Below are positions 1 to 47,036 of a stretch of 47,050 nt of DNA, piece after piece. The position numbers and the translations under genes are program-made. How positions within the stretch are numbered: the first letter of the stretch is position 1; each line of letters opens with the position of its first letter. The DNA is from Deltaproteobacteria bacterium. GTDB lineage: Bacteria; Desulfobacterota; Dissulfuribacteria; Dissulfuribacterales; Dissulfuribacteraceae. The DNA lies in NCBI GenBank assembly GCA_026994795.1, contig JALWQB010000196.1, forward strand, positions 1-47,050, in the 5' to 3' direction. The notes beneath the pieces were generated by a model, which did no database searches, had not been told where the DNA came from, and was given only the letters and a program-made list of their open reading frames with translations.

Positions 1-2982
1 TGTTGCATTTACATTAAACGTGCCGTATGCATTGAGACTGACATTAATATGGAGATAAATCTCTGAGCCGATGTCAAGGCCGTCCACATGCCACCTTAGC
101 CGCGTAGCATTCGTGGCATTGCATTGCTCATCTCCATTGGTGGCATTGTGCGAGAGATATTGAATGCCATCAGGTAAGGTAATTGTGATATTTGCATCCA
201 TTATATCTTCTCCCCTATTGCTTAACGCTACGGTAAATGTGGCGTTATTGCCTAATATAGCGGTTGAATTATCAACAAAGACTGATATGCCTGCGTCAGC
301 ATAGGGGCGGCGATAGCCTTGATGAGATGGGTCGTAATGGAACATTGGCCAAGGGGTAGCCGCTAACCCGCTGGAGCTGGGATAAAATGCATAAAAATTA
401 CCGTCAGATGACCCAACATATATGGTCCCATCGCTGCCTATGGCTGGAGACGAATCTATCCAGTCTCCTGTAGTATAAGACCATTTTAAAGTGCCGTTAG
501 AGGCTATAGCATAAAACTTATAGTCATCTGACCCAACATATATGGTCCCATCGCTGCCTATGGCTGGCGATGAATATATACAGTCGCCTGTAGGATAAGA
601 CCATTTTAAAGTGCCGTTAGAGGCTATAGCATAAAGATTATTATCATATGACCCAACATATATAGTTCCATCGCTGCCTATGGCTGGCGATGATTCTATA
701 TAGTCTCCTGTAGGATAAGACCATTTTAAAGTGCCGTTAGAGGCTATAGCATAAAGATTATTATCATATGACCCAACATATATAGTTCCATCGCTGCCTA
801 TAGCTGGCGATGAATATATATAGTCGCCTGTAGGATAAGACCATTTTAAACTGCCGTTAGAGGCTATAGCATAAAGATTATTGTCTAATGACCCTACATA
901 GATAGTCCCATCGCTGCCTATGGCTGGCGATGAATATATATATCCTGTAGGATAAGACCATTTTAAAGTGCCGTTAGAGGCTATAGCATAAAGATTATTG
1001 TCTAATGACCCTACATAGATAGTCCCATTGCTGCCTATAGCTGGCGATGAATATATATAGTCGCCTGTAGGATAAGACCATTTTAAAGTGCCGTTAGAGG
1101 CTATAGCATAAAGATTATTATCATATGACCCAACATATATAGTTCCATCGCTGCCTATGGCTGGCGATGATTCTATATAGTCTCCTGTAGGATAAGACCA
1201 TTTTAAAGTGCCGTTAGAGGCTATAGAATAAAGATAACCGTCATCTGACCCAACATATATTGTCCCATCGCTGCCTATAGCTGGCGATGAATATATATAG
1301 TCGCCTATCTCAAACATCCACCTAACATCCCACTCTCTTGTTACATTCCATGATGCATGATCATTTAATGAATTTATATCCGTTGGATCAGTAGCATTTA
1401 GGCCGGCGTTAACTATATATGTCCCCAAATTTTCTACTCTGACTGTTACATTGAGGGTAACACTCTGTCCAACTTCCATGCCATATATATTCCATAGTCC
1501 AGTAGTGCTGTTATATGAAGATGAGCCTTCATCATCAGCGCCATACTTGTGAGACAGATAGGTAAGCCCCTCAGGTATGGTTAAGGTTATATTGGCAGAA
1601 ATAATATAGCTATTCCCAACATTATTTGCCGTTATGATAATGGTCCCATTTTCTCCATCCTGACTCCCTATTATGTTTAATCCTACATCAGGACCATTCA
1701 CGCAACAGTTCACTCTGCCTGTACGCCTCTGGTCATGACGAAACATTGGCCATGAGGATTCATAAGGCCCGAGGCTATCAGATGCGATGGCATAAAGATA
1801 ATTATCATTTGATCCCACATAGATCGTGCCATCATCTCCTATCACAGGCGATGATTTTACTGCCCCATATGTGATAAAATGCCACTTCTCAGTGCCGTTT
1901 GAGGCAATGGCATAGAGGTTGTTGTCATCCGAGCCAACATATATAACCCCGTCTGAGCCTACGGCAGGGGAGGATTCTATAGAGCCGTTTGTGATGAAAT
2001 GCCATATCTCAGTGCCGTTTGAGGCAATGGCATAAAGGTTGTAGTTATTAGAGCCAAAGTATATAGTCCCGTTCATTCCAATGGCGGGAGAGGAATAGAT
2101 GGAAGCATTGACTGAATAATGCCATCGCTCTGTCCCGTTTGAAGCAATGGCGTAAAAGGTGCCGTTGGCTGTTCCAAAATATATTGTCCCATCCATCCCA
2201 ATGGCAGGGGAGGTTGTTATGGCAGGGCTGGAGCGTTCTACATGAAAGTGCCATTTTTCAGTGTGATTTGCCGAATAGACTGCAGTGAGATTTCCATTTT
2301 CGCTCCCTACATAGATAACGCCCTCACTATCCATGACAGGAGAGGCGGTTACTGGGCTTCCAATTTGAAAAGACCAATTTAGCGTGCCCTCACTCCTGTC
2401 ATAGGAGTTGAGCGCACCCTCGTCAGTCCCTATATATAAACTAAGGCCGTCCGATGATATGAGAGGGCCAGAAGAAGAGGTATCTCCATTGGTATAAATA
2501 CTCCCGACCTCCCATTGATTTATTCCATTAGATGTATAACGTGCGTCAAGCGTCCCATTTTCTTCTCTTCCATACACCACCCCTGCATCGTCCACTGCAA
2601 GGGATGAACCCACATCAAATGAAACGCTACAGTTGTTATAGCTTGGCCCGCTCCATATAATATCACCTGTACTATCAGTTGTTGTGGCGTTCAGGGTATA
2701 TATTTTACAAATAAGCGTATCCGAGGCTGTAGCAACCTGCACGGAGATTCTCCCGTCTCCATCCAGAGCAGGCGCTGAGACTACCTCGCCTCCGAGGTCA
2801 GCCTGCCATATCATAGAGCCAGCAGTATAAGCCCCTGCTGCATATATAAAAGTAAGCATCCCACAACATATTACCCATAACGATATTGCTAAGGATATAA
2901 GAAACTTACAAAGGATATGGTGAGTTAGAAAGGTATTTGATACTTGACTATAATCATTATTATAATTCTTCAAGAACACCAT
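1..2982 (-). CDS. Large exported PQQ-like beta-propeller protein (partial, 3' end off window)
   Basis: The minus strand is open for 994 codons from an ATG at 2982 to the window edge, with AAAGGGGG 7-8 bases upstream as ribosome binding site. A hydrophobic segment near residues 29-48 (about ILCKFLISLAISLWVICC) is a signal peptide or anchor. Eight PQQ-like blades follow (roughly residues 55-410), ending in WPMFRHD, a sequence typical of the edge of PQQ-like repeat domains. A DUF11/CARDB-like domain follows (about 420-550). A second set of eight nearly identical 40-residue blades (about 555-875) ends in WPMFHYD, and then another DUF11-like domain starts. Each blade carries SSPAIGSDGTIYVGS and LYAIASNGT. 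The function is unknown; such proteins are usually cell-surface or periplasmic scaffolds or adhesins, and no catalytic quinoprotein residues are recognised. It is a single gene, with no operon partner seen upstream. Confidence 0.9.
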   Translation of the reverse strand, partial: MVFLKNYNNDYSQVSNTFLTHHILCKFLISLAISLWVICCGMLTFIYAAGAYTAGSMIWQADLGGEVVSAPALDGDGRISVQVATASDTLICKIYTLNATTTDSTGDIIWSGPSYNNCSVSFDVGSSLAVDDAGVVYGREENGTLDARYTSNGINQWEVGSIYTNGDTSSSGPLISSDGLSLYIGTDEGALNSYDRSEGTLNWSFQIGSPVTASPVMDSEGVIYVGSENGNLTAVYSANHTEKWHFHVERSSPAITTSPAIGMDGTIYFGTANGTFYAIASNGTERWHYSVNASIYSSPAIGMNGTIYFGSNNYNLYAIASNGTEIWHFITNGSIESSPAVGSDGVIYVGSDDNNLYAIASNGTEKWHFITYGAVKSSPVIGDDGTIYVGSNDNYLYAIASDSLGPYESSWPMFRHDQRRTGRVNCCVNGPDVGLNIIGSQDGENGTIIITANNVGNSYIISANITLTIPEGLTYLSHKYGADDEGSSSYNSTTGLWNIYGMEVGQSVTLNVTVRVENLGTYIVNAGLNATDPTDINSLNDHASWNVTREWDVRWMFEIGDYIYSSPAIGSDGTIYVGSDDGYLYSIASNGTLKWSYPTGDYIESSPAIGSDGTIYVGSYDNNLYAIASNGTLKWSYPTGDYIYSSPAIGSNGTIYVGSLDNNLYAIASNGTLKWSYPTGYIYSSPAIGSDGTIYVGSLDNNLYAIASNGSLKWSYPTGDYIYSSPAIGSDGTIYVGSYDNNLYAIASNGTLKWSYPTGDYIESSPAIGSDGTIYVGSYDNNLYAIASNGTLKWSYPTGDCIYSSPAIGSDGTIYVGSDDYKFYAIASNGTLKWSYTTGDWIDSSPAIGSDGTIYVGSSDGNFYAFYPSSSGLAATPWPMFHYDPSHQGYRRPYADAGISVFVDNSTAILGNNATFTVALSNRGEDIMDANITITLPDGIQYLSHNATNGDEQCNATNATRLRWHVDGLDIGSEIYLHINVSLNAYGTFNVNAT
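385..1315 (-). repeat. Eight tandem 120-bp coding repeats (propeller blades)
   Basis: Eight in-frame units of about 120 bp (40 residues) run head to tail, most differing at only a few bases. One unit, near 945, has lost three bases, which keeps the frame. The units differ mainly at a few codons (GDYIE or GDYIY; SYDNN, SLDNN or SDDGY). This points to recent duplication or gene conversion. The older propeller at about 1790-2800 has the same periodicity but diverged sequence. Confidence 0.9.
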
Positions 2983-4004: not shown

Positions 4005-4427
4005 ATGTACACAAGGGTCCTGGTATTAAGATTTCCGCCCGACATTACCGATAAGCCGTTAGTATGCAGGCTTGCAAGGGATTTTGATTTGGACTTTAAT
4101 ATCTTAAAGGCAGAAATACTCCCTGAGGAAGAAGGGCTTATGGTGCTTGAGCTTTCGGGACACAAAAAGAATGTCTCAGAGGGGCTTAAATACCTCAAGG
4201 CCCAGGGAGTCAAGATAAAATCAGTTGCGCAGCAGATACGCCGCAATGAAGATGTCTGCATCCACTGCGGGGCATGCACCGGTATATGCCCGACAAATGC
4301 CTTGACTATTGACCCTGAGACAGCTTATGTAAACTTTGAGCCCTCAAAGTGTAAAGGATGTGAGTTTTGCCTTATAGTGTGCCCTGTAAGGGCAATGGAA
4401 ATAAAATTTGCAAAGGAAAAGGTATAA
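4005..4427 (+). CDS. NIL-domain ferredoxin, 2x[4Fe-4S]
   Basis: A protein of 140 residues with a GGAGG site before the ATG. Residues 1-75 match the NIL domain, a small ligand-binding fold also found at the C-terminus of MetN transporter ATPases. Residues 80-135 carry two classic cluster motifs, CIHCGACTGICP and CKGCEFCLIVCP, so it should bind two [4Fe-4S] clusters. In methanogens and several anaerobic bacteria, NIL ferredoxins act with a COG1900/DUF39 protein in an alternative homocysteine synthesis route (established knowledge). No COG1900 gene is visible in this window, so the partner is unknown. It is probably an electron carrier in sulfur or methionine metabolism. The cysteine-related fusion gene lies two genes downstream. 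Confidence 0.88.
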   Translation: MYTRVLVLRFPPDITDKPLVCRLARDFDLDFNILKAEILPEEEGLMVLELSGHKKNVSEGLKYLKAQGVKIKSVAQQIRRNEDVCIHCGACTGICPTNALTIDPETAYVNFEPSKCKGCEFCLIVCPVRAMEIKFAKEKV

Positions 4428-4502: not shown

Positions 4503-6242
4503 ATGAATTTTTTCAAAAATATGGGGATTACTTCAAAGGTCATATTATCTGTCCTTATAGTTATAATGTTTGTAGCTGTTGTTATAATACTGTTCGGCGG
4601 TTACAGAGAGTATGAAAAGACAAAAAAGGCTGCGCGGCATGAGGCAAAGGCCATCCTGTTACAGGGTGAAGCCGTAAGAGAAATGATAGCCAATTTAAAC
4701 TCAAAGGGGGCATTTAACGCTTATCTTGATGAGATTAAAAAGAAGATCAAATCTGACAATATTGAAGATAAGCAAAAGGCCATAGCAGATTTTTTGGATA
4801 CAGTGCCTGTTGTCTCTTCTATTTATATGCTTTCTAAGAATGCTGAAAAGGGTGGATATGTATTAAGGGTTCCAAAAATTATGCCGAGAAACCCTGCAAA
4901 CACCCCAAGCCCCATTGAATTAAAGGCTCTTAATGAGCTTAAAACTAAGGGACTTGAAGAGCTTACCATATATTCTGACTTTAATGACCCAAAGACAGGA
5001 AAAGTAAGGCCAGTCCTTAGATATTTCAGGCCAATCGTCCTTACAAAAGAATGTGAGCTCTGTCATGGAGACCCCTCCCTTTCAAGGGAGCTATGGGGCA
5101 ATGATGAGGGCCTTGACCCAACTGGCGCAAGGATGGAGGGCTGGAAGGCAGGAGAGATACATGGCGCATTTGAGATTATCTATTATCTTGATGTGCCTAT
5201 GAAAGAAATGTTAAAAAATCAGGCAGTAGTAGCTGGCCTTATCTTAGTGGGCATGTTACTGGTGGTATTCTTTGTAAGCCTTGCAATAAAGATACTGGTA
5301 AAAAGGCCATTAGATGCCCTGATCGTTCAGGCTGAGCGGATGGCAAGAGGAGACCTTTCTGGCAGTGTGGATATAGGCTCTAATGACGAGATGGGAAGGT
5401 TTGGCGCTGCATTTAAGGCAATGCAACAAGGGCTCATAAGGCTTATATCAAGCACAAAGACAAGCGCAACTGATGTGGATGATTCATCAAATAGCCTCTT
5501 AAATGTAAGTGATGAGATGTACTCACAGACCCAGAATGCAACTGAATCTGCAAGGGAGGCTGCTGAAATAACCCAGCAGGCAAGCCATAATATAGAGTCT
5601 ATTGCCTCTGCTGTTGAAGACTTCTCCATAGCCTCTCAAGAGATTGCAACAAATGTCTCACAGGCAGCCTCTATAAGCAATAATGCAAGGGAGCAGATGG
5701 AAAATTCAAGCCAGTTTGTGGAAAAACTTGGCTCAAGCTCACAAGAGATAGGCAGGGCAATAAAGCTTATAAGCGATATTGCGGAGCAGACAAACCTGCT
5801 GGCGCTTAACGCTACTATTGAGGCGGCAAGGGCTGGTGAAGCTGGAAAGGGCTTTGCCGTGGTTGCCAATGAGGTAAAGGAGCTTGCCAAGCAGACCGCT
5901 CAGGCAGCGGAAGACATTACTGGCATGATCAATACCATTCAGGCAGATAGTAACAGCGCCGTCAACGCAATTGGAGAGGTCAGACAGATAATTGAGCAAC
6001 TTAATGATATTAATAATACTATTGCCTCTGCCGTTGAAGAGCAGACTGCTACAGTCAATGAGATAACAGAAAACATCTCAAACGCTGCCAACTCTACAAA
6101 AGAGGTATCTGATATTGTGGCAAATGTTGCGGAGGTAAATGAAAATGCCTCTTCAAGCGCTATGCACACAAAAGAGCAGGCGGAAAGGCTTGCCTCCCTT
6201 GCAAACGAGCTGTCAGCAGTAGTGGCATCTTTTAAGGTATGA
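4503..6242 (+). CDS. Methyl-accepting chemotaxis protein with haem-binding (DUF3365-type) sensor
   Basis: A protein of 579 residues with a strong AAAGGAGG site. The first membrane segment is at about residues 12-34. The extracytoplasmic domain, about 35-238, resembles the Tll0287/DUF3365 PAS-like fold and contains CELCH (residues 184-188), a c-type haem attachment motif. The second membrane segment is at about 240-263, HAMP at about 264-316, and then a long cytoplasmic signalling domain follows. The conserved hairpin tip [19 protein letters not shown] is present. It should sense redox state, oxygen, NO or another haem ligand and signal through CheA/CheW to the flagellar motor. There is no C-terminal CheR/CheB pentapeptide. 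Glu/Gln-rich methylation helices are visible. Confidence 0.92.
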
Positions 6243-6285: not shown

Positions 6286-8745
6286 ATGTCTTACAACTCA
6301 ATATTAGGCCTTATTGGAAATACCCCCCTTGTGCCCATAAGGAGGCTTAATCCTTATAGGAATGTAAAGATATACGCAAAATTAGAGGGGGTTAATCCTG
6401 GCGGTTCCGTAAAGGACAGGATTGCCCTTTCTATGATAGAAGGGGCGGAAAAGAGGGGTGAGCTTACGAAGGAGAAAATAGTCCTTGAGGCAAGCAGCGG
6501 CAACACCGGAATTGGCCTTTCTATGGTATGCGCGATTAAGGGCTATAAGTGCCTAATAGCCATGAGCGAGGCGGCAAGCATTGAAAGGCGAAAGATTATG
6601 GAGGCCTATGGCGCTGAAATACTCCTTACCCCTGCACGCCTCAGCACAGATGGCGCAATAGAGGCGGTATATGAGATATACAGGAGGGGAAAGGGGAAGT
6701 ATTTCTGCGCAGACCAGTTTAACAACCCTGACAACTGGAAGGCCCACTACCATACCACCGCCCTTGAGATATGGGAGCAGACAGGCGGAAGGGTAGATTG
6801 CATATGCGCCACAATGGGCACAACAGGGACCCTTATGGGCATTACAAGGCGCATGAGAGAGCTTGACCCATCTGTAAGGATTGTTGGCGGAGAGCCTACT
6901 TACGGGCACAGGATACAGGGGCTTAAAAATATGAAGGAGTCATATAAGCCAGGGATATATGACAAGTCCATACTAAATGCAGTAAGGAGCGTCTATGATG
7001 ATGAGGCGTTTGAGCTGTCAAGGCTCCTTGCAAGGGAAGAGGGCATATTTGTCGGCATGAGCTCAGGCGCAGCCCTTAGCGTTGCGCTAAAGGAGGCAGC
7101 GGAGCTTGAGAACAGGCTAAGTGAGGGGGGAAGAGACGGTGAAAAAGAAGGCGTCATCGTAGTCATATTTCCTGATGGAGGGGAGCGGTATTTAAGCACC
7201 CCCCTTTTTCAGATCCATGAGGATATAGAGGCGAATAAGGGGGTTTTAAGGCTTTTTAACTCTCTTACAAGGCGAAAGGAGGCGTTTGAGCCTATCTCTA
7301 AGGGCAAGGTCGGGATATATTCCTGCGGCCCAACCGCCTATGAGCATGCCCACATAGGGCTTTGCAGGCGCATGGTAATGGCTGATGTATTGAGAAGGAC
7401 CCTTGAGCATAATGGATATGAGGTAACCCATGTTATAAACATAACTGATATTGATGATAAGACAGTTAATGGGGCGTTAAAAAAGGGAGTATCTCTTCAG
7501 GAGTTTACAATACCCTATATTGACAGCTTCATAGAAGACATAGAATCGCTTGGCGTAAAACCCCCTGAATACATGCCAAAGGCAAGCGAGCATGTAGAAG
7601 ACATGATAAATATCGCAACCTACCTTATAGAAAAGGGGGTTGCCTATGAAAAGCACGGTTCCCTTTATTTTGACATATCAAAACTCAACGGCTATGGCTC
7701 ATTATCACGGATTGACACATCAAAGATAAGGGTTGGGAGCACTGTTGACCTTGACGAATACGATAAGGACAGCCCGTTAGACTTTACCTTATTAAAGCGC
7801 ATAACCCTTGAAGAGCTAAAGGCAGGCATTGGCTTTGAATCCCCCTGGGGCAAGATAAGACCCGGCTGGCACATAGAGTGCGCGGCAATGGCGAGGAAAT
7901 ATCTTGGGGAATTCTTTGACATACACACGAGCGGCGCTGACCTTATCTTTCCGCACCATGAAAATGAGATAGCCATCTCAAGGGCTGTGAGCGGCACCAC
8001 TCTGGCAAAGACATGGCTCCATAGCGAGCTTGTCCTCATAGATGGAAAGAAGATGTCTCGCTCATCAGGAAATGCCATTACGCTTAAGCAACTTATAAAG
8101 AAGGGTTATAGCGGAAGAGAAGTGCGGTTTTTCCTCCTGCGCTCACACTATAAAAGCCCCATAAGGTTTTCATTCTCCTACTTGGATGAGGCTCTGAGGG
8201 CATTTAAAAGGCTCAATGGCCTTATAGGTGAGATTGTGGCGTTAAAGGCATTGACCGCACTCACTGATACTGATGAACCCAGATATTGGGGCAGCCATAC
8301 AATAAATAAGTCAGCAGATAAGACGGAAAATACAGGGGATAAAACAGCTAATGACGCCATCATAAAAGAGCTTGAAGGGCTTAAAGAGGACTTCTGGGCC
8401 TCTTTATACGATGACCTCAACACCCCGAGGGCAATAGGAATGCTTTTTCAGATAGGGCGCCTCCTCTCAAATAAGGCATGGGGCCTGCCCCCCTCTTCAT
8501 ATAAAGAGGCAATTGAGCTCGCCTATGACCTCTTGGTGTCATTTAATTCTGTGCTCAACATCTTAGACCTTTCTCTTCCGTCCAAAGAGACGCTGAATAA
8601 GGTTTTAGAGCTTATTCACTCAAGGCAGGAGGCAAGGACAGCAAACGACTGGAAGCGTGCTGATGCAATCAGAAAAGAACTACTAAACATGGGGGTTGAG
8701 GTGCTTGATGCCCCAAAGGGTGTGAGGTGGCGAATAATATCTTAA
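6286..8745 (+). CDS. cysK-cysS: Fusion of cysteine synthase (CysK) and cysteinyl-tRNA synthetase (CysS)
   Basis: One uninterrupted frame of 819 residues. Residues 1-310 are a complete O-acetylserine sulfhydrylase/cystathionine-beta-synthase-type enzyme: PLP lysine K43 in NPGGSVKDR, substrate loop ASSGNTG, PLP phosphate loop GTTGTLMG and the C-terminal FPDGGERYLST. Residues from about 330 on are a complete class I CysRS: zinc ligand C347 in SCGPT, HIGH-type motif HAHIGL (354-359), WHIECAAM, HHENE, KMSRS (589-593) and the C-terminal helical anticodon region ending at DAPKGVRWRII. The protein would make cysteine and load it on tRNA-Cys. The fourth HIGH residue is Leu instead of the usual His/Asn. 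No frameshift or stop lies at the junction. Its end overlaps murJ. Confidence 0.95.
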   Translation: MSYNSILGLIGNTPLVPIRRLNPYRNVKIYAKLEGVNPGGSVKDRIALSMIEGAEKRGELTKEKIVLEASSGNTGIGLSMVCAIKGYKCLIAMSEAASIERRKIMEAYGAEILLTPARLSTDGAIEAVYEIYRRGKGKYFCADQFNNPDNWKAHYHTTALEIWEQTGGRVDCICATMGTTGTLMGITRRMRELDPSVRIVGGEPTYGHRIQGLKNMKESYKPGIYDKSILNAVRSVYDDEAFELSRLLAREEGIFVGMSSGAALSVALKEAAELENRLSEGGRDGEKEGVIVVIFPDGGERYLSTPLFQIHEDIEANKGVLRLFNSLTRRKEAFEPISKGKVGIYSCGPTAYEHAHIGLCRRMVMADVLRRTLEHNGYEVTHVINITDIDDKTVNGALKKGVSLQEFTIPYIDSFIEDIESLGVKPPEYMPKASEHVEDMINIATYLIEKGVAYEKHGSLYFDISKLNGYGSLSRIDTSKIRVGSTVDLDEYDKDSPLDFTLLKRITLEELKAGIGFESPWGKIRPGWHIECAAMARKYLGEFFDIHTSGADLIFPHHENEIAISRAVSGTTLAKTWLHSELVLIDGKKMSRSSGNAITLKQLIKKGYSGREVRFFLLRSHYKSPIRFSFSYLDEALRAFKRLNGLIGEIVALKALTALTDTDEPRYWGSHTINKSADKTENTGDKTANDAIIKELEGLKEDFWASLYDDLNTPRAIGMLFQIGRLLSNKAWGLPPSSYKEAIELAYDLLVSFNSVLNILDLSLPSKETLNKVLELIHSRQEARTANDWKRADAIRKELLNMGVEVLDAPKGVRWRIIS

Positions 8746-10313
8746 GGCTTGCACGTTCTTTTAGCTCTGTCAGCATAGCAGTATTCCTGTCGCGCATACT
8801 CGGGCTTGTAAGGGAGCAGGTCCTTGCAGGGCTATTTGGGGCAGGCACCCAGATGGACGCCTTTGTAGTGGCATTTCGCATCCCGAACCTCTTGCGAGAC
8901 CTCCTTGCAGAAGGCGCTTTAAGCAGTGCATTTGTTACAGTATTCTCAGAATTTGATGAAAAACGCCCACGCCATGAGACTCTTGAGCTTGTAACATGCA
9001 CATTTTTTGCGTTTGCAACCATCCTCTCCATTATCGTATTGACAGGGTTATTTTTCTCAAGGGAGCTTGTCCTCTTAATGGCCCCTGATTTTTCAAAGAT
9101 AGAGGGAAAAGTGGCGCTTACTGTAACTCTCACAAGGATTATGTTCCCCTTTATCCTCATGGTCTCTATGGCATCCCTTTTTATGGGCATATTAAATGTA
9201 AGAAGGCACTTCTTTATCCCGTCCCTTGCATCTGCAATGTTCAACCTCTCTTCCATAATTATAGGCGGCGGGCTTTCCCTGCTGCTTCCTCAGTATGGAT
9301 ATGAGGCAATTACAGGTATGGCAATCGGGACGCTTCTTGGCGGGGCATCTCAGATGGCTATTCAGACGCCGCTTCTAAAAAAAGAGGGGATTAGCCTATT
9401 TGCCTGTCTATCCCCAGCGCTCCTTCGCAATATGTTCTTTCACCCCGGGGTAAAGAGGATAATGCTCCTTATGCTCCCTGCAGTAATAGGTATGTCTGCC
9501 ACGCAAATCAACATCTTTATAAACACCAACTTTGCATCTCAATGTATGGAGGGAAGCGTTGCATGGCTTAATTATGCCTTTAGACTCATACTCTTTCCCA
9601 TAGGGGTATTTGGCGTCGCCATCTCAATTGCATCAACGCCTGACTTTGCGAAAAGGGCAGCGCAAAATAATATGAGCGCATTCTCAGTCGCCCTTGTTGA
9701 CTCGCTTGGCCTTTCAATGACCCTTGGCGTCCCCGCCTCTTTTGGGCTATGGGTAATGGCAGAGCCAATAGTAAGGCTCATATTTGAACATGGCGCATTC
9801 TCTCAATTAGATACCCTGATGACAGCTCAGGCAGTAAGGCTTTATGCCATTGGCCTTGCCGCCTATTCAGCAGTAAAGATTATTGTCCCTGCATTTTACG
9901 CCATAAAAGACACCAAGTGGCCTGTTGCTGTGAGCTTCGCATCAGTTGTCTTAAATATCCTGATTATCCTGACAACTATTAATGAGCTGCAACATAAGGC
10001 GATTGCCCTGTCAACATCCATTACGGTTATGATTAACTTCTTTATCCTTGCAGTTGTCCTGTATAAAAAGATAGGCGGATATGATGTAAAAGGCCTTATT
10101 ATGGAGTTTTTCAAGATAGCCGTCTCATCTCTTATTATGACTGCTGTTATAAAGTCTATATTAATATGGTTTTCAGCAGATGCCCTTACTAAAATAGGGT
10201 TATTTTTGTATGTGGCGGGGCTTATAATAGCTGGCGTATTGAGCTATGGCATATGCGGTTATGCATTTAAGATAGGCGCAATAAAAAATGTTTTTTCTCT
10301 ATTTTCCCCTTGA
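8727..10313 (+). CDS. murJ: MurJ lipid II flippase
   Basis: A protein of 528 residues in the MATE/MOP exporter superfamily, with about 14 hydrophobic segments. The N-terminal RILGLVREQVLAGLFGAGTQMDAFVVAFRIPN-like stretch (residues about 23-54) is the family signature, including the substrate-contact arginines. It moves lipid II across the inner membrane for peptidoglycan synthesis. The start is GTG at 8727, behind AAAGGG, inside the last codons of cysS (19-base overlap), which suggests translational coupling. The length matches the family (about 510-530). Confidence in function is high because there is no sign of a polysaccharide flippase context. Confidence 0.94.
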   Translation: MANNILRLARSFSSVSIAVFLSRILGLVREQVLAGLFGAGTQMDAFVVAFRIPNLLRDLLAEGALSSAFVTVFSEFDEKRPRHETLELVTCTFFAFATILSIIVLTGLFFSRELVLLMAPDFSKIEGKVALTVTLTRIMFPFILMVSMASLFMGILNVRRHFFIPSLASAMFNLSSIIIGGGLSLLLPQYGYEAITGMAIGTLLGGASQMAIQTPLLKKEGISLFACLSPALLRNMFFHPGVKRIMLLMLPAVIGMSATQINIFINTNFASQCMEGSVAWLNYAFRLILFPIGVFGVAISIASTPDFAKRAAQNNMSAFSVALVDSLGLSMTLGVPASFGLWVMAEPIVRLIFEHGAFSQLDTLMTAQAVRLYAIGLAAYSAVKIIVPAFYAIKDTKWPVAVSFASVVLNILIILTTINELQHKAIALSTSITVMINFFILAVVLYKKIGGYDVKGLIMEFFKIAVSSLIMTAVIKSILIWFSADALTKIGLFLYVAGLIIAGVLSYGICGYAFKIGAIKNVFSLFSP

Positions 10314-13609: not shown

Positions 13610-15040
13610 ATGAACCAGCAGGACATAACCTATAGGTCAAGGACGCTTATATTCTCTAAAAAGACTCAGATAAGGCTTTTTGCACAAGAGGCAATTGAGC
13701 CCCTTGGCATCCATACAACCCCATGCGACAGGGAAGAGATGTTTTATGACCTATTAGGCTCAAAGGGGTTTAATCTTGCTATAGTAGGGCATGGAACTGA
13801 TGATATAAACGCTATAGACATGCTTAAAGAGCTATCATCAAGGCGCCATATAAACCTTCCTGTCATAGTGCTTGCCTCAAGTTGCTCCATAGAGGATGCA
13901 ATAAAGATTATGCAGGCAGGCGCTGAAGACCTCCTGCTTGCCCCATGGGAACAGGAGACCGTAAGGATTGCCTGTGAAAGGGCAATTTACAACTTTCCCC
14001 TGAGACTGAAGAAAAAAAACAAAGAAAAGGCGATAAAAAAAGAGATTTCAAGGCATGGGCTTATCTATAAGAGCAAGGAGATGGAAAAGGTCGTAAAGAT
14101 AGCCAGAAATATCGCCCCCAGTAAGGCATCTGTATTGATACAGGGAGAAAGCGGCACAGGAAAGGAGGTGATGGCGCGTTTTATCCATGAAAACAGCGAC
14201 AGAAAAGACGGCCCGTTTGTAGCGCTTAACTGCGCCTCTTTGCCTGACACCCTGCTTGAAAGCGAGCTGTTTGGACATGAAAAAGGGGCGTTTACCGGGG
14301 CAATCTCAAGGAAAAAGGGCAAATTTGAACTGGCCAATCACGGCACAATACTCCTTGATGAGGTTACTGAGATGGCGTTTCAACTTCAGGCAAAGCTCTT
14401 AAGGGTCCTGCAAGAAGGCGAGGTGGACAGGGTTGGCGGCTCATCCCCTGTGCCAGTAGATGTAAGGGTCATTGCTACCACGAACAGGGATATAAAGCAG
14501 ACGATAAAAGAGGAAAAATTCAGAGAAGACCTCTACTTCAGGCTCAATGTAATACCGCTTGTGCTGCCTCCGCTGAGAGAGAGAAGGGAGGATATACCAA
14601 TACTTGCAGACTATTTTTTAAGGCAGTTTTCTGCTGAATACGGGAAAACAGGCATTAAATTTGCTTCTTCAGCTATTGAATATATGATGAAGAGGGATTG
14701 GAAGGGCAATATCAGAGAACTCAGGAATATTGTTGAAAGAGGGGTATTGCTCGCGCAAGGAGATGCTGTTGAGATACAAGACCTCTTTATTGATGAGCTA
14801 AGTGAGCTTGATGTGGATATGCAGATGGATGATGTATCAGATGGGATAGATGCCCAAAATGATATTCCTTCCATACCGCAAGATACGTTTAACCTCGGGG
14901 ATATTGAGAGAGAAGTCATAAAAATGGCGCTTAAAAAGACAGAGGGCAACAGGACCCATGCTGCAAAACTTTTGGGCATAAGCGTCAGGACATTGAGAAA
15001 TAAGCTTGCAGAATACAGAAAGATGGGGCTTGTATTATGA
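13610..15040 (+). CDS. Sigma-54-dependent activator with degenerate receiver (flagellar regulator)
   Basis: A protein of 476 residues. Residues 8-125 have the receiver fold, but the acidic pair is replaced (LIFSKKTQIR) and the phospho-acceptor Asp position reads AIVGHGTDD, so normal phosphorylation looks impossible. Residues 145-380 are a complete AAA+ domain: Walker A GESGTGKE (179-186), GAFTGA (226-231) for sigma-54 contact, ILLDE Walker B and FREDLYFRLN arginine finger. Residues about 435-472 are a Fis-type helix-turn-helix (NRTHAAKLLGISVRTLRNKL). By position and form it is an FlrC/FleQ/FlgR-like activator of flagellar genes. Its stop overlaps the flgB start (ATGA), so it is in the same operon. 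Confidence 0.93.
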   Translation: MNQQDITYRSRTLIFSKKTQIRLFAQEAIEPLGIHTTPCDREEMFYDLLGSKGFNLAIVGHGTDDINAIDMLKELSSRRHINLPVIVLASSCSIEDAIKIMQAGAEDLLLAPWEQETVRIACERAIYNFPLRLKKKNKEKAIKKEISRHGLIYKSKEMEKVVKIARNIAPSKASVLIQGESGTGKEVMARFIHENSDRKDGPFVALNCASLPDTLLESELFGHEKGAFTGAISRKKGKFELANHGTILLDEVTEMAFQLQAKLLRVLQEGEVDRVGGSSPVPVDVRVIATTNRDIKQTIKEEKFREDLYFRLNVIPLVLPPLRERREDIPILADYFLRQFSAEYGKTGIKFASSAIEYMMKRDWKGNIRELRNIVERGVLLAQGDAVEIQDLFIDELSELDVDMQMDDVSDGIDAQNDIPSIPQDTFNLGDIEREVIKMALKKTEGNRTHAAKLLGISVRTLRNKLAEYRKMGLVL

Positions 15041-15459
15041 AGACGCTATTTGGAAAGGGCTTTGACATACTTGAAAAGGCCATATCCATCAGGACAAAGA
15101 GAAATACTGTCCTTAGCTCAAACATAGCAAATGTGGACACCCCAGGCTATAAGGCAAAGGACATACCATTTGAAAGGGTTATGGCCCAATACTTGCAGGG
15201 AGAAAAGAGAGACGGCCTTGAACTGACGCGGACGCAGGGCGCTCATCTTCCAAGGGACTATAGAGACGACCCGTTCTCAGAAAAGAGGCAGGGGATAGTT
15301 GTAGAGTCAATGGAGCGGGGCACGCCCAACAGCGTGGATATTGATGTTGAGATGGCGAAGCTATCTGAGAACAATCTTCAGTATCAGACATCAGTTCAGC
15401 TCCTCATACGCCGTCTTGAAGGGTTAAAGACAGCAATTACCGAAGGAGGTAAGCCATAA
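15037..15459 (+). CDS. flgB: Flagellar basal-body rod protein FlgB
   Basis: A protein of 140 residues, the usual length. The N-terminal rod/hook signature RNTVLSSNIANVDTPGYKAKD is present in the expected place (about residues 21-41), and the C-terminal helix ENNLQYQTSVQLLIRRLEGLKTAI matches proximal-rod proteins. It forms the proximal rod in the periplasm after export through the flagellar type III system. It overlaps the regulator by 4 bases and touches flgC (TAATG), so translation is probably coupled. Confidence 0.95.
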   Translation: MKTLFGKGFDILEKAISIRTKRNTVLSSNIANVDTPGYKAKDIPFERVMAQYLQGEKRDGLELTRTQGAHLPRDYRDDPFSEKRQGIVVESMERGTPNSVDIDVEMAKLSENNLQYQTSVQLLIRRLEGLKTAITEGGKP

Positions 15460-15965
15460 TGAACCTGTTTTCAGCTATTGAGATAAGCGCAAGGGGGCTT
15501 TCAGCAGAGAGGACAAGGGTAAACATTGCGTCAATGAACCTTGCAAACGCCCATGTTACCCGCACAATAGATGGCGGGCCTTACAGGGCAAAGTCTGTGA
15601 TATTTGAGGCAGTTCCATATAAGCCAAATGCGGATGAGGTTCAAGACGAGCTAAAAGAGCTTGATGAATTTGATGGCATAGACAAGATAAAAGAGGCCTC
15701 ATTTGATACGGTGTTAAAGGATGAGATGGAAAAGGTTCAGGTCGTAAAGGTTGCAAGGGTGGTAGATAACCCTGACCCATTTAAAGAGGTATATGACCCA
15801 ACTCACCCTGATGCGGATGAAAGGGGCATTGTAAGGCTTCCTAATGTGAATGTAGTTGAGGAGATGGTTGACCTTATGACGGCATCAAGGGCATATGAGG
15901 CAGGGGTTACAGCGCTGAATACCGCAAAACAGATGGCGTCAAAGGCGCTTGAGATAGGAAGATAG
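15459..15965 (+). CDS. flgC: Flagellar basal-body rod protein FlgC
   Basis: A protein of 168 residues. The N-terminal part FSAIEISARGLSAERTRVNIASMNLANAHVTRT and the C-terminal NVNVVEEMVDLMTASRAYEAGVTALNTAK-type helix (given in parts here) are the conserved FlgC ends. A middle region rich in Asp/Glu (EVQDELKELDEFDGID) is longer than in E. coli FlgC (134 residues), which is common outside the enterics. It is a proximal-rod subunit exported by the flagellar apparatus. The start codon overlaps the flgB stop by one base. Confidence 0.95.
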   Translation: MNLFSAIEISARGLSAERTRVNIASMNLANAHVTRTIDGGPYRAKSVIFEAVPYKPNADEVQDELKELDEFDGIDKIKEASFDTVLKDEMEKVQVVKVARVVDNPDPFKEVYDPTHPDADERGIVRLPNVNVVEEMVDLMTASRAYEAGVTALNTAKQMASKALEIGR

Positions 15966-15980
15966 TGGGCAGATAAAAAA

Positions 15981-16280
15981 ATGAAGGTGATGAAATTACA
16001 GGACATTGAAAACGCAATTAAAAAAATAAAGCCTGAGTTAGAGCAGAAATTCGGTATAAAAAAGATAGGAATATTTGGGTCATACAGCAAAGGATTAGCG
16101 AATGAAGAGAGCGACATTGACCTTATTGTTGATATTAAGCATCCAATAGGACTTATAAGATTTATACAGATAGAACAATATTTGACAGATATATTAAACA
16201 GGAAGGTAGATTTATTAACATTTCAAGGCATAAAGCCATATATAAAGCAGGATATATTGAAAGATATAAAATATGTCTAA
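15981..16280 (+). CDS. MNT-type minimal nucleotidyltransferase (MntA antitoxin-like), inserted in flagellar operon
   Basis: A protein of 99 residues with the pol-beta superfamily motif GSYSKGLANEESDID, an exact GSX10DXD (G33, S34, D45, D47), and a third Asp in KVDLLTF. MNT proteins of the MntA/HEPN toxin-antitoxin type AMPylate and neutralise the HEPN ribonuclease encoded next to them (established knowledge). Here it sits between flgC and fliE, where no flagellar gene of this kind belongs, and its sequence is visibly more AT-rich and Ile/Lys-rich than its neighbours, suggesting transfer. No intact HEPN gene follows; see the remnant at 16273. The start ATG at 15981 may be replaced by the ATG two codons later (MKVMK). 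Confidence 0.88.
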   Translation: MKVMKLQDIENAIKKIKPELEQKFGIKKIGIFGSYSKGLANEESDIDLIVDIKHPIGLIRFIQIEQYLTDILNRKVDLLTFQGIKPYIKQDILKDIKYV

Positions 16281-16367
16281 GCAAAATAGAAAAATCGCAT
16301 ATTATTTTTTAGACATTTTTTAAAACAAGAGATTTTAAAGATAAAAGAAAGAGAATTTAAATCCTAA
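16273..16367 (+). pseudogene. Possible HEPN toxin remnant after the MNT gene
   Basis: An ATG at 16273 overlaps the end of the MNT gene, as a HEPN toxin gene often does, and reads MSKQNRKIAYYFLDIF before a stop at 16321. In the next frame KQEILKIKEREFKS continues to 16367. HEPN/DUF86 proteins commonly begin MSK-R---L-DIL--I--I, so this 95-base, very AT-rich stretch could be the remains of a largely deleted toxin. The match is short and rests on memory of the family, so it may be plain intergenic DNA. Confidence 0.3.
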
Positions 16368-16390
16368 CAAGTTGATAAAAGGACGATACT

Positions 16391-16699
16391 ATGAGCACAT
16401 CCATCAACTCCATTAAGACATCTTTACTAAATGGCCCAAGGCCTTTTTCCCTTGAACCGCAGGATGGGGAAGGAAAGGTAAGGGGCTTTCAGGACATGCT
16501 GAAGGATGCGGTGAGCGCCGTAAATGAGAGGATGAACAAGGCAGAAGATATGTCAACAAGGCTTACGCTTGGAGAGCCCCTTGACATAGCTGATGTAATG
16601 ACTGCCATGACAAAGGCGTCTATTTCGTTTCAGCTCCTTACTCAGGTGAGAAACAAGGCCCTTAGCGCCTATGAAGAGATAATGAGGATGCAGGTATAA
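16391..16699 (+). CDS. fliE: Flagellar MS-ring/rod adaptor FliE
   Basis: A protein of 102 residues, the normal FliE length. The C-terminal half, FQDMLKDAVSAVNERMNKAEDMS and DVMTAMTKASISFQLLTQVRNKALSAYEEIMRMQV (split here), is the conserved FliE pattern. It connects the MS ring to the rod. The ATG is 110 bases after the MNT gene, and its own stop overlaps the fliF start (TAATG). Confidence 0.93.
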   Translation: MSTSINSIKTSLLNGPRPFSLEPQDGEGKVRGFQDMLKDAVSAVNERMNKAEDMSTRLTLGEPLDIADVMTAMTKASISFQLLTQVRNKALSAYEEIMRMQV

Positions 16700-18318
16700 T
16701 GGCTACCATAGACTATAAACCATATATAGAACCATATATAGAGCAGGTAAAGGCCATTTACGGGAGGCTTACGCTTATCCAGAAGATAACTATTGGCGTT
16801 GTGCTCGCTGCCTCTATCATTGGCATTGCGACATTATTTCTTATGTCTGACGACACAAAGTATGCAACCCTCTACACTGACCTTACTGCAAAGGATGCCT
16901 CAGCCATTGTGGAGTGGCTCAAAAAAGAGGGCGTAAAATATAAGCTCGTAAAGGAGGGCGCTGCCATACAGGTGCCGGAGGGGCTTGTATATGACTTGAG
17001 GCTCGCCCTTGCAAACGACGGCCTTCCCAAAGACCCTGGGGTGGGGTTTGAGATATTTGATAAGACAAACCTCGGGGCAACGGATTTTGTCCAGCATGTA
17101 AACTATCAGAGGGCGCTTCAAGGAGAGCTTGAGCGCACTATCGCCCGTTATCCTCAGGTAAAGGAGGTAAGGGTCCATATTGCAGAGCCAAAGGAGTCTC
17201 TTTTTGTAACAGAGCGCCATGAGCCATCTGCATCTGTCCTCTTGACGCTTAAGCCTGATGAGACGCTCACGAGGCGTCAATTGATTGGCATTGTCAACCT
17301 TGTGTCAAGCTCTGTGCCAAGGCTCAAGAAAAAGCGTGTTACCATAATGGATACAAGCGGCGCAGTGCTGCTTCAGGGAGAAAAACTGAAGGAAGAAAGA
17401 CCTGACCTTACAAGGGCGCAGGTGGAATATCAAAGGCGCTTAGAGACCTATTATAAGCACAAGCTGCAGACCATGCTTGAAGAGGCGCTCGGGCCAAAGA
17501 AGGCAGTTGCCAGAGTGTCTGTAGAGGTGGACTTTAGCAAGGTAGAGATAAATGAAGAGAAATATGACCCTGAGATGGTTGCCATAAGGAGCCAGCAGAA
17601 GGTGCTTGCAAGAAAGGAGGGTGCTGAGACAGGCGGCATCCCCGGGGTAAAGGGCGGGCTTGCCTCTAAATTACAGGGAAATGTAGGGCTTAAGAGCAAA
17701 AAGTCCGGCATAATGAAACAGGAAGAGATCACGAACTGGGAGATATCCAAGACAGAGAAGAAGGTAAGAGGGGCTGTCGGCAGGATTGTAAGGATATCAG
17801 CAGGGGTTCTGGTTGACGGCGCTTATGAGGTAAAGGACGGTAAGGTAAAGTATATCCCGAGGACTGAGGAAGAGATTAAAGAGCTTGAAAATCTTGTAAG
17901 GGCGGCTATTGGCTATAATGAGGAAAGGGGCGATGAGGTAAAGGTCATAAACGTCCCGTTTAGCGGCACAAGGCCGAAGGTTGCTGATGCCATGACAAGG
18001 ACGATAGAGATTATATCAAAGGTAGCAAAGCCTTTTTCAAATGTCCTGTTAGCTGTCCTCTTCATCTTCTTTGTAATAAGGCCGATCCTCAATAAGTATG
18101 TATTGGGCGTAAAGGATGAGGAGATCGAGGCCATTGAAGGGGCTGAGGAAGAAGAAGAGGAAGAGGGTCTTGAAGAAGACATTGAGGCTGCCCCCGCAAT
18201 TGAGCCTATGCCGAGCGCTCAGGAAGAATTACAGGGGCTTGCAGCGGATTATCCTGAAAGGGCGGCAGCGCTTATAAAGATATGGCTCAGAGAGCCAATG
18301 GTAGAGACAGAGGCCTAA
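16699..18318 (+). CDS. fliF: Flagellar MS-ring protein FliF
   Basis: A protein of 539 residues. A membrane segment is at about residues 28-49 (ITIGVVLAASIIGIATLFL). The YscJ/FliF ring-building domain follows, with DLTAKDASAIVEWLKKEGVKY, QRALQGELERTI and VRVHIAEPKESLF. A second membrane segment is at about 440-460 (VLLAVLFIFFVIRPIL). The cytoplasmic tail has a run of glutamates and ends in YPERAAALIKIWLREP, the FliG-binding helix. It forms the MS ring in the inner membrane, the base of the motor. It is coupled to fliE by a one-base overlap and followed by fliG after 25 bases. Confidence 0.96.
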   Translation: MATIDYKPYIEPYIEQVKAIYGRLTLIQKITIGVVLAASIIGIATLFLMSDDTKYATLYTDLTAKDASAIVEWLKKEGVKYKLVKEGAAIQVPEGLVYDLRLALANDGLPKDPGVGFEIFDKTNLGATDFVQHVNYQRALQGELERTIARYPQVKEVRVHIAEPKESLFVTERHEPSASVLLTLKPDETLTRRQLIGIVNLVSSSVPRLKKKRVTIMDTSGAVLLQGEKLKEERPDLTRAQVEYQRRLETYYKHKLQTMLEEALGPKKAVARVSVEVDFSKVEINEEKYDPEMVAIRSQQKVLARKEGAETGGIPGVKGGLASKLQGNVGLKSKKSGIMKQEEITNWEISKTEKKVRGAVGRIVRISAGVLVDGAYEVKDGKVKYIPRTEEEIKELENLVRAAIGYNEERGDEVKVINVPFSGTRPKVADAMTRTIEIISKVAKPFSNVLLAVLFIFFVIRPILNKYVLGVKDEEIEAIEGAEEEEEEEGLEEDIEAAPAIEPMPSAQEELQGLAADYPERAAALIKIWLREPMVETEA

Positions 18319-18343
18319 CTCACAAACAGAGGTAGATAAAAAT

Positions 18344-19408
18344 ATGCCTACTACTGCAGCAGAACAGATGTTACAGGCTCTTACCCAAGGGGAAGAGCTT
18401 GATCTCTCCGACCCAAAAGGGCCTTATAAGGCCGCTATATTCCTGCTTGCGATGGGAGAGGCATTTACAACTGAGGTATTTAAATACCTTAAAGAAGAAG
18501 AGGTCAAGCAGGTCTCAAGCCTTATGGCGAGGATAAAATATATACCCGGCGAGGCCATTGAGAGGGTGCTTAAAGAGGTCAGGGAAAAGATGTCAATGGT
18601 CCAGGGGGAGGTATCTGTGCCTGTAGAGGAATTTCTCAAAAAGGTGCTCTTTTCATCCCTCCCGGAAGAGCAGGCCAAAAAGATATATGAAGATATTATG
18701 AGACAGCTTCACCCAAGCACGTTTCAGAAGCTGTCAAGCCTTGAGCCAAAGGTAATCGTAAACTTCCTGAGGAATGAACACCCCCAGACCATTGCCGTCA
18801 TCCTTGCAAACCTTGAGCCTGAACTTGCAGCTGACATACTTGGCGAGCTGCCGGAAAAGCTCCAGTCGGATGTAATGATAAGGATAGCAAACCTTGAAAA
18901 GATAAACCCAGAGATAGTAGCGGAGATTGACAAGGTGCTGGAAGAAGAGCTCTTCTCTGTTGAGATGAGCGATGCCAAAAAGGTTGGAGGCGCAGAGAGG
19001 GTTGCCTCTATCCTCAATAACATTGACAGGAATCTTGAAGAGTCCCTTATGTCAAAGATTGAAGAGACAAGCGAAGAGCTTGCTGAGGAGATAAGGAAGC
19101 TCATGTTCAAGTTTGAAGACCTTCTTATGGTGGACGATACTGCAATTGTTTCAATACTTAAAGAAATAAGCACTGACGACCTTAAACTTGCGCTCAAGGC
19201 CGCAAGCGATGACCTGAAGGACAAGTTCTTTAACAATATGAGTGAGCGCGCGGCCCAGCTCCTTAAAGAAGACCTTGAGGTCATGGGCCCTGTAAGGCTC
19301 AAGGATGTTGAAACAGCGCAGCAGGCAATAATCAAGGTGGCGAAACGCCTTGAGAGCGAAGGCAAAATCGTCCTTGGCGGGAAAGGAGGCGACGAGGTCC
19401 TTGTCTGA
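18344..19408 (+). CDS. fliG: Flagellar motor switch protein FliG
   Basis: A protein of 354 residues with the standard three domains. The middle domain carries EHPQTIAVILANL, the EHPQR-type motif for FliM binding. The C-terminal domain has MFKFEDLLMVDD followed by the charged torque helix DLKLALKAASDDLKDKFFNNMSERAAQLL (split here), which contacts the stator. The N-terminal domain binds the FliF tail encoded upstream. It has a GAGG-type binding site about 11 bases before the ATG. Its end overlaps fliH. Confidence 0.96.
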   Translation: MPTTAAEQMLQALTQGEELDLSDPKGPYKAAIFLLAMGEAFTTEVFKYLKEEEVKQVSSLMARIKYIPGEAIERVLKEVREKMSMVQGEVSVPVEEFLKKVLFSSLPEEQAKKIYEDIMRQLHPSTFQKLSSLEPKVIVNFLRNEHPQTIAVILANLEPELAADILGELPEKLQSDVMIRIANLEKINPEIVAEIDKVLEEELFSVEMSDAKKVGGAERVASILNNIDRNLEESLMSKIEETSEELAEEIRKLMFKFEDLLMVDDTAIVSILKEISTDDLKLALKAASDDLKDKFFNNMSERAAQLLKEDLEVMGPVRLKDVETAQQAIIKVAKRLESEGKIVLGGKGGDEVLV

Positions 19409-20390
19409 TCTTATAAAGGCCAGTGAGACATCAATAGTTGAGATCAGGTCCATCCTGTTTGACGAGGAGGGGTGCAGCGCAAAAGATACGTCCTCATCCC
19501 ATGATGACGGCTCCCCTGACACAGCGCAGGACAACATATTCAGCCCCTTAATATGCCTTATTGAGGGCGGGGTGGATTTAGCAGGAGAAAACGCCCCTGA
19601 TGAACCTGATGACATTAAAAAGGCTGAGGAGGGGGATACGGGGTATGAAGATGAACCTTCTTCCCCTAATACGTTGACCATTACGGAAGATGAGCTAAAT
19701 GAGTTAAAGGAGAACATAAAAAAAGAGCTACAGGCAGAGATAAGGACAAAGTTAGAAGAAGAGCTGAGGGAAGAGAGAGATAAAATCATAAAAGATGCAC
19801 GGAAAGAGGCTGAACGCATTAAAAAGGAGGCTGAAAAGACATTAGAAGAATCAAAGGAGATGTCTCAAGAGATTGAAAAGAGCGCCTATCAGGACGGCTT
19901 TTCAAGAGGCGATAAAGAGGCAAGAGATAAGTGGCAAAAAGAATATGAAACAACTGTAAACAGGCTTAAAAAGATTATAGAGGCAATTAATCAGCAAGGA
20001 CTTGCCTTATTCTCAAAATATGAGGCTCAAATGATAGAGCTTATTCTCAAGGTCTCTAAGATGATTGTAAACCACGAAATATCCACCTCAAATGATACGA
20101 TTATACAGGCAGTAAGGTTCGCCTCACAAAAGGTGAGCGAGGCAACTTCAATCAAGGTCGTTTTACACCCTGATGACATGAAGGTTATAGAAGACGCAGC
20201 GCTGAAGGGCATTGACTTATCTCAGGGGCATGAGCTTGAATTTATCCCAAAGGCGTCTGTTGAACAGGGCGGCTGCATTATAGAGACAGATTTCGGCCTG
20301 ATTGACAACACTATGGAAAACAGGTGGTCTATTGTGGAAGGAACTATAAAAAATATGCTCCAGAGTCGTATAGGGGCGGAAAAAGATTGA
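19401..20390 (+). CDS. fliH: Flagellar export ATPase regulator FliH
   Basis: A protein of about 329 residues. After an acidic, low-complexity N-terminal third come a long charged coiled coil (about residues 95-180, alternating EE and KK runs) and a C-terminal FliH/HrpE domain with GFSRGDKEARDKWQKEYE, EAQMIELILKVSKMIVNHEI and a GGCIIETDFGLIDNTMENRW end. It binds FliI and holds it at the export gate. The longest frame starts at TTG 19350, deep inside fliG; I prefer TTG 19401, eight bases before the fliG end and behind AGGAGG/GAGG. The N-terminal acidic region is longer than in E. coli FliH. Confidence 0.88.
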   Translation: MSDLIKASETSIVEIRSILFDEEGCSAKDTSSSHDDGSPDTAQDNIFSPLICLIEGGVDLAGENAPDEPDDIKKAEEGDTGYEDEPSSPNTLTITEDELNELKENIKKELQAEIRTKLEEELREERDKIIKDARKEAERIKKEAEKTLEESKEMSQEIEKSAYQDGFSRGDKEARDKWQKEYETTVNRLKKIIEAINQQGLALFSKYEAQMIELILKVSKMIVNHEISTSNDTIIQAVRFASQKVSEATSIKVVLHPDDMKVIEDAALKGIDLSQGHELEFIPKASVEQGGCIIETDFGLIDNTMENRWSIVEGTIKNMLQSRIGAEKD

Positions 20391-20403
20391 GGCTGTAAAG
20401 GTT

Positions 20404-20438
20404 GTAGAGGTTATATAGGGGGTAGAGGTTATATAGGG
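20404..20438 (+). repeat. Tandem 17-bp repeat carrying the fliI ribosome binding site
   Basis: GTAGAGGTTATATAGGG occurs at 20404-20420 and again at 20422-20438, ending two bases before the fliI ATG. Each copy contains GAGG and AGGG, so the duplication doubles the translation start region of fliI. Copy-number change here could alter FliI level. Confidence 0.8.
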
Positions 20439-20440
20439 CG

Positions 20441-46943: not shown

Positions 46944-47036
<93 letters not shown>

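Follow-up and report, generated by a model that had tools for sequence, protein, structure and literature searches.

Among the described paralogs of aminoacyl-tRNA synthetases, HisZ is the closest counterpart of the protein reported here. It is a paralog of HisRS that has no adenylation activity and mediates the allosteric control of HisG by histidine, according to two reports (PMC9437257; PMC9734150). A duplicated CysRS, designated CysRS*, occurs in the Desulfobacterales. It is reported to charge SelC* and to have no anticodon-binding domain (PMC9437257, citing Mukai et al. 2017). On the side of cysteine synthesis, the CysM of C. jejuni uses O-acetylserine only (PMC9855970). No description of a CysM-CysRS fusion was found in the open-access literature, including the papers likeliest to contain one; public databases may well list the protein under a 'bifunctional' name.

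Domain organization of the fusion protein

The fusion gene occupies positions 6286..8745 (stop codon included) on the forward strand of the window, which is the whole 47,050-nucleotide stretch of DNA that was analyzed. It is a single unbroken frame of 819 residues, starts with ATG, and joins a CysM-type cysteine synthase to a CysRS-like region; all its features described below are on the same strand. Residues 5-309 (6298..7212) form the synthase domain, a CysM-type PALP fold recognized by PF00291 (241 bits) and by TIGR01136 cysKM (345.1 bits, cut-off 344.15), which places it in that family; the equivalog thresholds for cysM (394.2) and cysK (350.95) are not reached. A short linker of residues 309-316 (7210..7233) connects it to the CysRS-like region, which in HMM scans extends over residues ~321-818, the DALR and C-terminal anticodon-binding parts included. 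The class I catalytic-fold domain of this region comprises residues ~321-640 (7246..8205; PF01406, 332 bits; structural matches 1u0b and 8qhp), and the DALR and C-terminal anticodon-binding region comprises residues 703-816 (8392..8733; PF09190, PF23493).

The PDB sequence matches agree with this two-domain assignment. An AlphaFold2 model calculated from an alignment of 38 fusions contains two confidently folded parts (mean pLDDT 87) separated by the linker, which is of low confidence, and the arrangement of the two parts relative to each other is uncertain (pTM 0.63). Foldseek matched the model best to a tRNA-Cys complex of CysRS (1u0b), to other CysRS structures and to cysteine synthase B.

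Distribution of the fusion

The fusion is kept as one frame in 38 of the 46 genomes of the class (E<=1e-170), the one-contig genome G031 among them. The family's two other genomes have it too, at 72% identity. In an even draw of 395 genomes from 246 genera of the phylum, it was found in 156 genomes and 100 genera. Thus about 40% of the sampled genomes in a large bacterial phylum, sulfate reducers included, have the fusion. Named matches include Desulfopila sp. IMCC35008, several Desulfobacterales and other 'Deltaproteobacteria' assemblies. Among them, HyVt-14 is apparently a member of the same class as the source genome, as its coordinates agree with those of G039. Such conservation across family, class and phylum excludes a chance origin of the frame, and its presence in so many class and phylum genomes therefore points to a maintained function. 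The original prediction that one continuous 819-residue frame is present, together with the search for its domain architecture across genomes that it had proposed, is borne out by these data and by the HMM scans.

Two irregular cases were encountered within the class. Genome G038 (83% complete, 5% contaminated) has two copies of the fusion, on contigs C267 and C307, where mixing of strains is possible. The open frame at the G006 fusion is 1403 aa long; the excess was attributed to open sequence upstream of the gene, in a genome of high GC content, and not to an added domain.

The cysteine synthase domain

The PLP-binding lysine, K43 (6412..6414; the position of K51 in M. tuberculosis CysM), and the (S/T)SGNTG and GT(T/S)GT loops are present in all 51 fusions of the motif survey. 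Judged by these residues, the synthase half looks active.

The substrate-loop region reads EP-TYG...LKNM in the fusion as compared to EP-RYG...LRNM in M. tuberculosis CysM. The CysK-type insert is absent from this loop, whereas it is present in the CysE-linked CysK proteins of the class. Residue R220 of M. tuberculosis CysM, which we take to contact the phosphate of O-phosphoserine, corresponds to K214 (6925..6927), a lysine in 51/51 fusions. K214 alone is no proof of O-phosphoserine use, because the residue at this position of E. coli CysM is presumably basic (Arg) too. Although the substrate choice of such an enzyme is not readable from its sequence with certainty, the synthase half appears to be independent of O-acetylserine and probably uses O-phosphoserine.

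Other cysteine genes in the genomes carrying the fusion

In the source genome the fusion is the only CysK/M found, a search for a separate cysK or cysM having returned none, and the same is true of the one-contig genome. CysE was not detected in these two genomes or in most others of the class. In 33 of the 38 fusion-bearing class genomes, no cysteine synthase other than the fusion and no clear CysE was found; a separate full CysK is present in just five. Since the synthase half is the sole cysteine synthase in most of these genomes, it must do real work. A clear CysE was detected in six class genomes (G001, G002, G006, G022, G025 and G026), in each directly beside a stand-alone cysK on the same contig, and stand-alone CysK was found in these six only. 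G025, which is 99% complete, has the cysK-cysE pair without the fusion.

The same trend is seen across the phylum. Out of 395 genomes, 79 have both the fusion and CysE, 77 have the fusion only, 190 have CysE only and 49 have neither, which corresponds to an odds ratio of 0.26 (Fisher p 3e-9, in a test that ignores relatedness). The link between the fusion and CysE is a tendency, as half of the fusion genomes do have CysE, and for this reason O-phosphoserine use is perhaps not general. The overall pattern is consistent with a synthase that can do without O-acetylserine.

The source genome contains a second CysRS gene in addition to the fusion. It encodes a canonical protein of 494 aa with intact HIGH and KMSKS motifs, and is located on contig C133, flanked by engB-like and carA-like frames. 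Contamination as its source is ruled out, because nearly all genomes of the class have such a gene: of the 38 class genomes with the fusion, 36 have a separate canonical CysRS, at least partial, and so do all seven genomes reached from the named matches. The two exceptions, G003 (90% complete) and G037 (97% complete), are probably due to incompleteness. A different fusion of cysteine-making and cysteine-charging proteins was observed in a Nitrospirota assembly (JAADHP010000119.1, L025:689-2821), where a CysRS with intact HIGH and KMSKS shares its reading frame with an N-terminal segment that looks like a serine acetyltransferase (CysE).

The CysRS-like region

In class I synthetases the HIGH motif, a glycine-rich stretch and the KMSKS motif serve ATP binding and transfer. 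All three differ between the fusions and a reference set of 104 canonical CysRS sequences. The HIGH motif is HIGL here (residues 356-359; 7351..7362), and in 47 of the 51 fusions the fourth position holds L, M or another residue that is not H or N, whereas all 104 canonical sequences have HIGH, HIGN or alike; four fusions have HLGN, which differs little from HIGN, the normal form in half of the canonical enzymes. The GGGxD motif is replaced by TSGAD (residues 548-552; 7927..7941). The motif is changed in every fusion, with T as its first residue in all 51, and the position of E. coli G226, glycine in all canonical CysRS, is Ser or Cys in nearly all of them. The third motif is KMSRS (residues 589-593; 8050..8064). 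This is a mild, conservative change, shared by 26 fusions, but the lysine equivalent to K269, which is conserved in canonical CysRS, is found in none of the 51, and in several the whole motif is gone.

The residues that recognize cysteine and the anticodon have had a different fate. The zinc ligands C347 (7324..7326; C28 in E. coli), C532 (7879..7881; C209), and H557 and E561 (7954..7968; H234 and E238) are present in 51/51 fusions. The five anticodon-contact positions of the E. coli enzyme, R427, W432, D436, R439 and D451, are all occupied by the same residues in this protein (R784, W789, D793, R796 and D808, within 8392..8733). They are kept in nearly all fusions that reach that far, and the equivalents of D436 and R439 are found in all 50 that reach those positions. 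More generally, among the 73 positions that are at least 97% conserved in the 104 canonical sequences, 47 are kept in at least 95% of 37 fusions and 26 are not. The kept positions include the four zinc ligands, T68, H224, R423, D436, R439 and D451. Those lost or relaxed include H37, G39, the fourth residue of HIGH, G226, D229, K269 and S270, as well as W184, W194, G201, S210 and Q241. On the evidence of these alignments, elements of the ATP site have changed, whereas the residues for cysteine binding and anticodon binding have stayed.

The catalytic-fold part is conserved at 60% mean identity among the fusions, and the fused regions have a mean identity of ~38% to the class's own CysRS proteins. 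In a tree of 94 CysRS sequences, all the fused regions lie on one side of a single branch (SH-aLRT 100), as would be expected from one duplication followed by fusion.

Both domains had been predicted to be intact, and the polypeptide to make cysteine and charge it on tRNA. This holds for the synthase, whose role in making cysteine is well supported by its completeness and by its being the only such enzyme found in the genome. It is not borne out for the CysRS half with its HIGL, T-S-G and KMSRS motifs, and the data lend no support to charging. The suggested check for second copies had a split outcome, a separate cysS being found and a separate cysK or cysM not. The cell probably has no need of the CysRS half for charging, since it encodes a canonical enzyme, and the ATP site of this half is degraded. 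If this reading is right, the label cysteine--tRNA ligase is probably a misannotation of the fusion protein.

Proposed function and alternatives

We favor, at about even chances, a function in which a retired CysRS paralog serves as a built-in sensor of cysteine or tRNA-Cys on the cell's CysM-type, probably O-phosphoserine-using synthase. The N-terminal domain would convert sulfide and an activated serine to cysteine. The activated serine is most likely O-phosphoserine, because no CysE that could make O-acetylserine is detectable in the genome. In the CysRS-like region, the zinc site would still bind cysteine and the anticodon-binding part probably tRNA-Cys, whereas the degraded ATP site would no longer allow Cys-AMP to be made efficiently. 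A protein that kept the recognition of cysteine and tRNA-Cys and lost the chemistry is what such a sensor would look like. Free cysteine, and perhaps the charging state of tRNA-Cys, may then set the activity of the attached synthase allosterically. Feedback would thereby be placed on the cysteine-specific step, and control at this point would be useful because the O-phosphoserine route bypasses CysE, the usual point of feedback.

If correct, this proposal would account for the making and regulation of cysteine in bacteria that lack CysE, and the HisZ idea would gain a cysteine counterpart that is built on a class I synthetase and contained in one chain. A broader version, that tRNA-Cys (charged or uncharged) and cysteine bound to a non-catalytic fused CysRS set the synthase activity in a previously undescribed form of cysteine control that is widespread in this phylum, is more tentative. 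Should tRNA-Cys sensing be true, translational demand would act directly on the making of cysteine, in organisms that for the most part have no CysE.

The foremost alternative is that the fused region still works as a second CysRS and, through its coupling with the synthase, hands newly made cysteine to tRNA-Cys. The retained zinc/cysteine ligands and anticodon-binding residues agree with this, as do the mildness of the KMSRS change in this copy, the HLGN of four relatives, the two class genomes in which no other CysRS was found, and the best structural match being a CysRS with bound tRNA-Cys. Nevertheless, charging by the fusion is unlikely, considering that the canonical enzyme is encoded in 36/38 and 7/7 of the genomes, that the fourth HIGH residue and GGG are changed in nearly all fusions, and that the KMSKS lysine is never kept.

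Next in standing, and also improbable, is a passive scaffold that binds cysteine and zinc or tRNA and, with no allostery, holds the product or docks the synthase near the translation machinery. Such a role is compatible with the invariant zinc ligands and with the flexible linker between the two parts, yet a whole CysRS-like fold is not obviously needed for it, and the catalytic-fold part is nonetheless well conserved.

MshC, a known CysRS paralog of mycothiol synthesis, matches the region in both sequence and fold, and suggests that the region could join cysteine to another small molecule. This is very improbable: such a ligation is ATP-dependent, and it is the ATP site that has been lost, the anticodon-binding residues are kept, and the MshC profile TIGR03447 gives 212.3 bits against a cut-off of 485.1. 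It is harder still to believe that cysteine synthesis is tRNA-dependent, with the synthase acting on phosphoserine carried by a tRNA-Cys held on the CysRS-like region, despite the presence of the anticodon-binding residues and a substrate loop like that of M. tuberculosis CysM on one chain. Cys-tRNA is made by the canonical CysRS, and no SepRS was found over the cut-off in the 46 class genomes; matches below it, at about 23-27 bits, are consistent with the related PheRS, and the source genome has no match whatsoever at E<=1e-5. Finally, the doubt raised with the original prediction that the fusion might be a sequencing or assembly join, which could be entertained for a window from a 275-contig draft genome, is already refuted by the presence of the same frame in dozens of independent genomes, one-contig ones included, and has practically no chance of being right.

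Genomic surroundings

The last 19 bases of the fusion gene are shared with the listed frame of murJ (lipid II flippase; 8727..10313, forward strand). In most related loci of the class, too, murJ lies downstream. This neighborhood says little about cysteine and is no part of the proposed function. A methyl-accepting chemotaxis protein with a Tll0287-like sensor domain of the heme-binding type is encoded directly upstream (4503-6242, forward strand). Two genes upstream of the fusion is a gene for a protein with a NIL domain and a 4Fe-4S ferredoxin (4005-4427, forward strand). Proteins of this type are known from the assimilation of sulfide to homocysteine; the gene was looked for as a shared neighbor of the fusion in relatives and was not found there. 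Elsewhere in the window, a frame of more than 990 aa running off its edge (1-2982, reverse strand) contains many near-identical repeats, SSPAIGSDGTIYVGSxDNNLYAIASNGT, which by eye are of the PQQ-like β-propeller type. A flagellar cluster (13610-21847, forward strand) encodes FliF, FliG, a rod protein and an export ATPase, with a sigma-54 activator ahead of it, and a tRNA-Ser (CGA) is near the end of the window (46944-47036, forward strand).

Comparison with known systems

The proposed sensor-regulated synthase has its nearest parallel in HisZ-HisG. In both, a synthetase paralog, devoid of adenylation activity in HisZ and probably also in the fusion to judge by its eroded motifs, is attached to the enzyme that makes the same amino acid, and the coexistence with a separate working synthetase, a trait of the HisZ type, is found for the fusion as well. 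HisZ is a separate class II subunit, whereas the fusion has a class I CysRS paralog in the same chain, with its anticodon-binding residues kept and a regulatory role that we infer. The synthase half shares with the O-phosphoserine sulfhydrylase CysM of M. tuberculosis the CysM-type fold, a similar loop (LRNM there, LKNM here) and the lack of the CysK insert, but it has Lys in place of Arg220 and carries the CysRS-like region. Canonical bacterial CysRS has the same fold, zinc ligands and anticodon-binding residues, and differs in that the HIGH, GGG and KMSKS motifs are changed in the fusions, which form a separate clade. MshC resembles the fusion in being a CysRS paralog with a role outside translation, which for the fusion is presumed, but it is ATP-dependent and has no synthase attached. 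CysRS* of the Desulfobacterales is likewise a duplicated CysRS in related bacteria; unlike CysRS*, the fusion keeps the anticodon-binding region and appears to have lost the ATP site.
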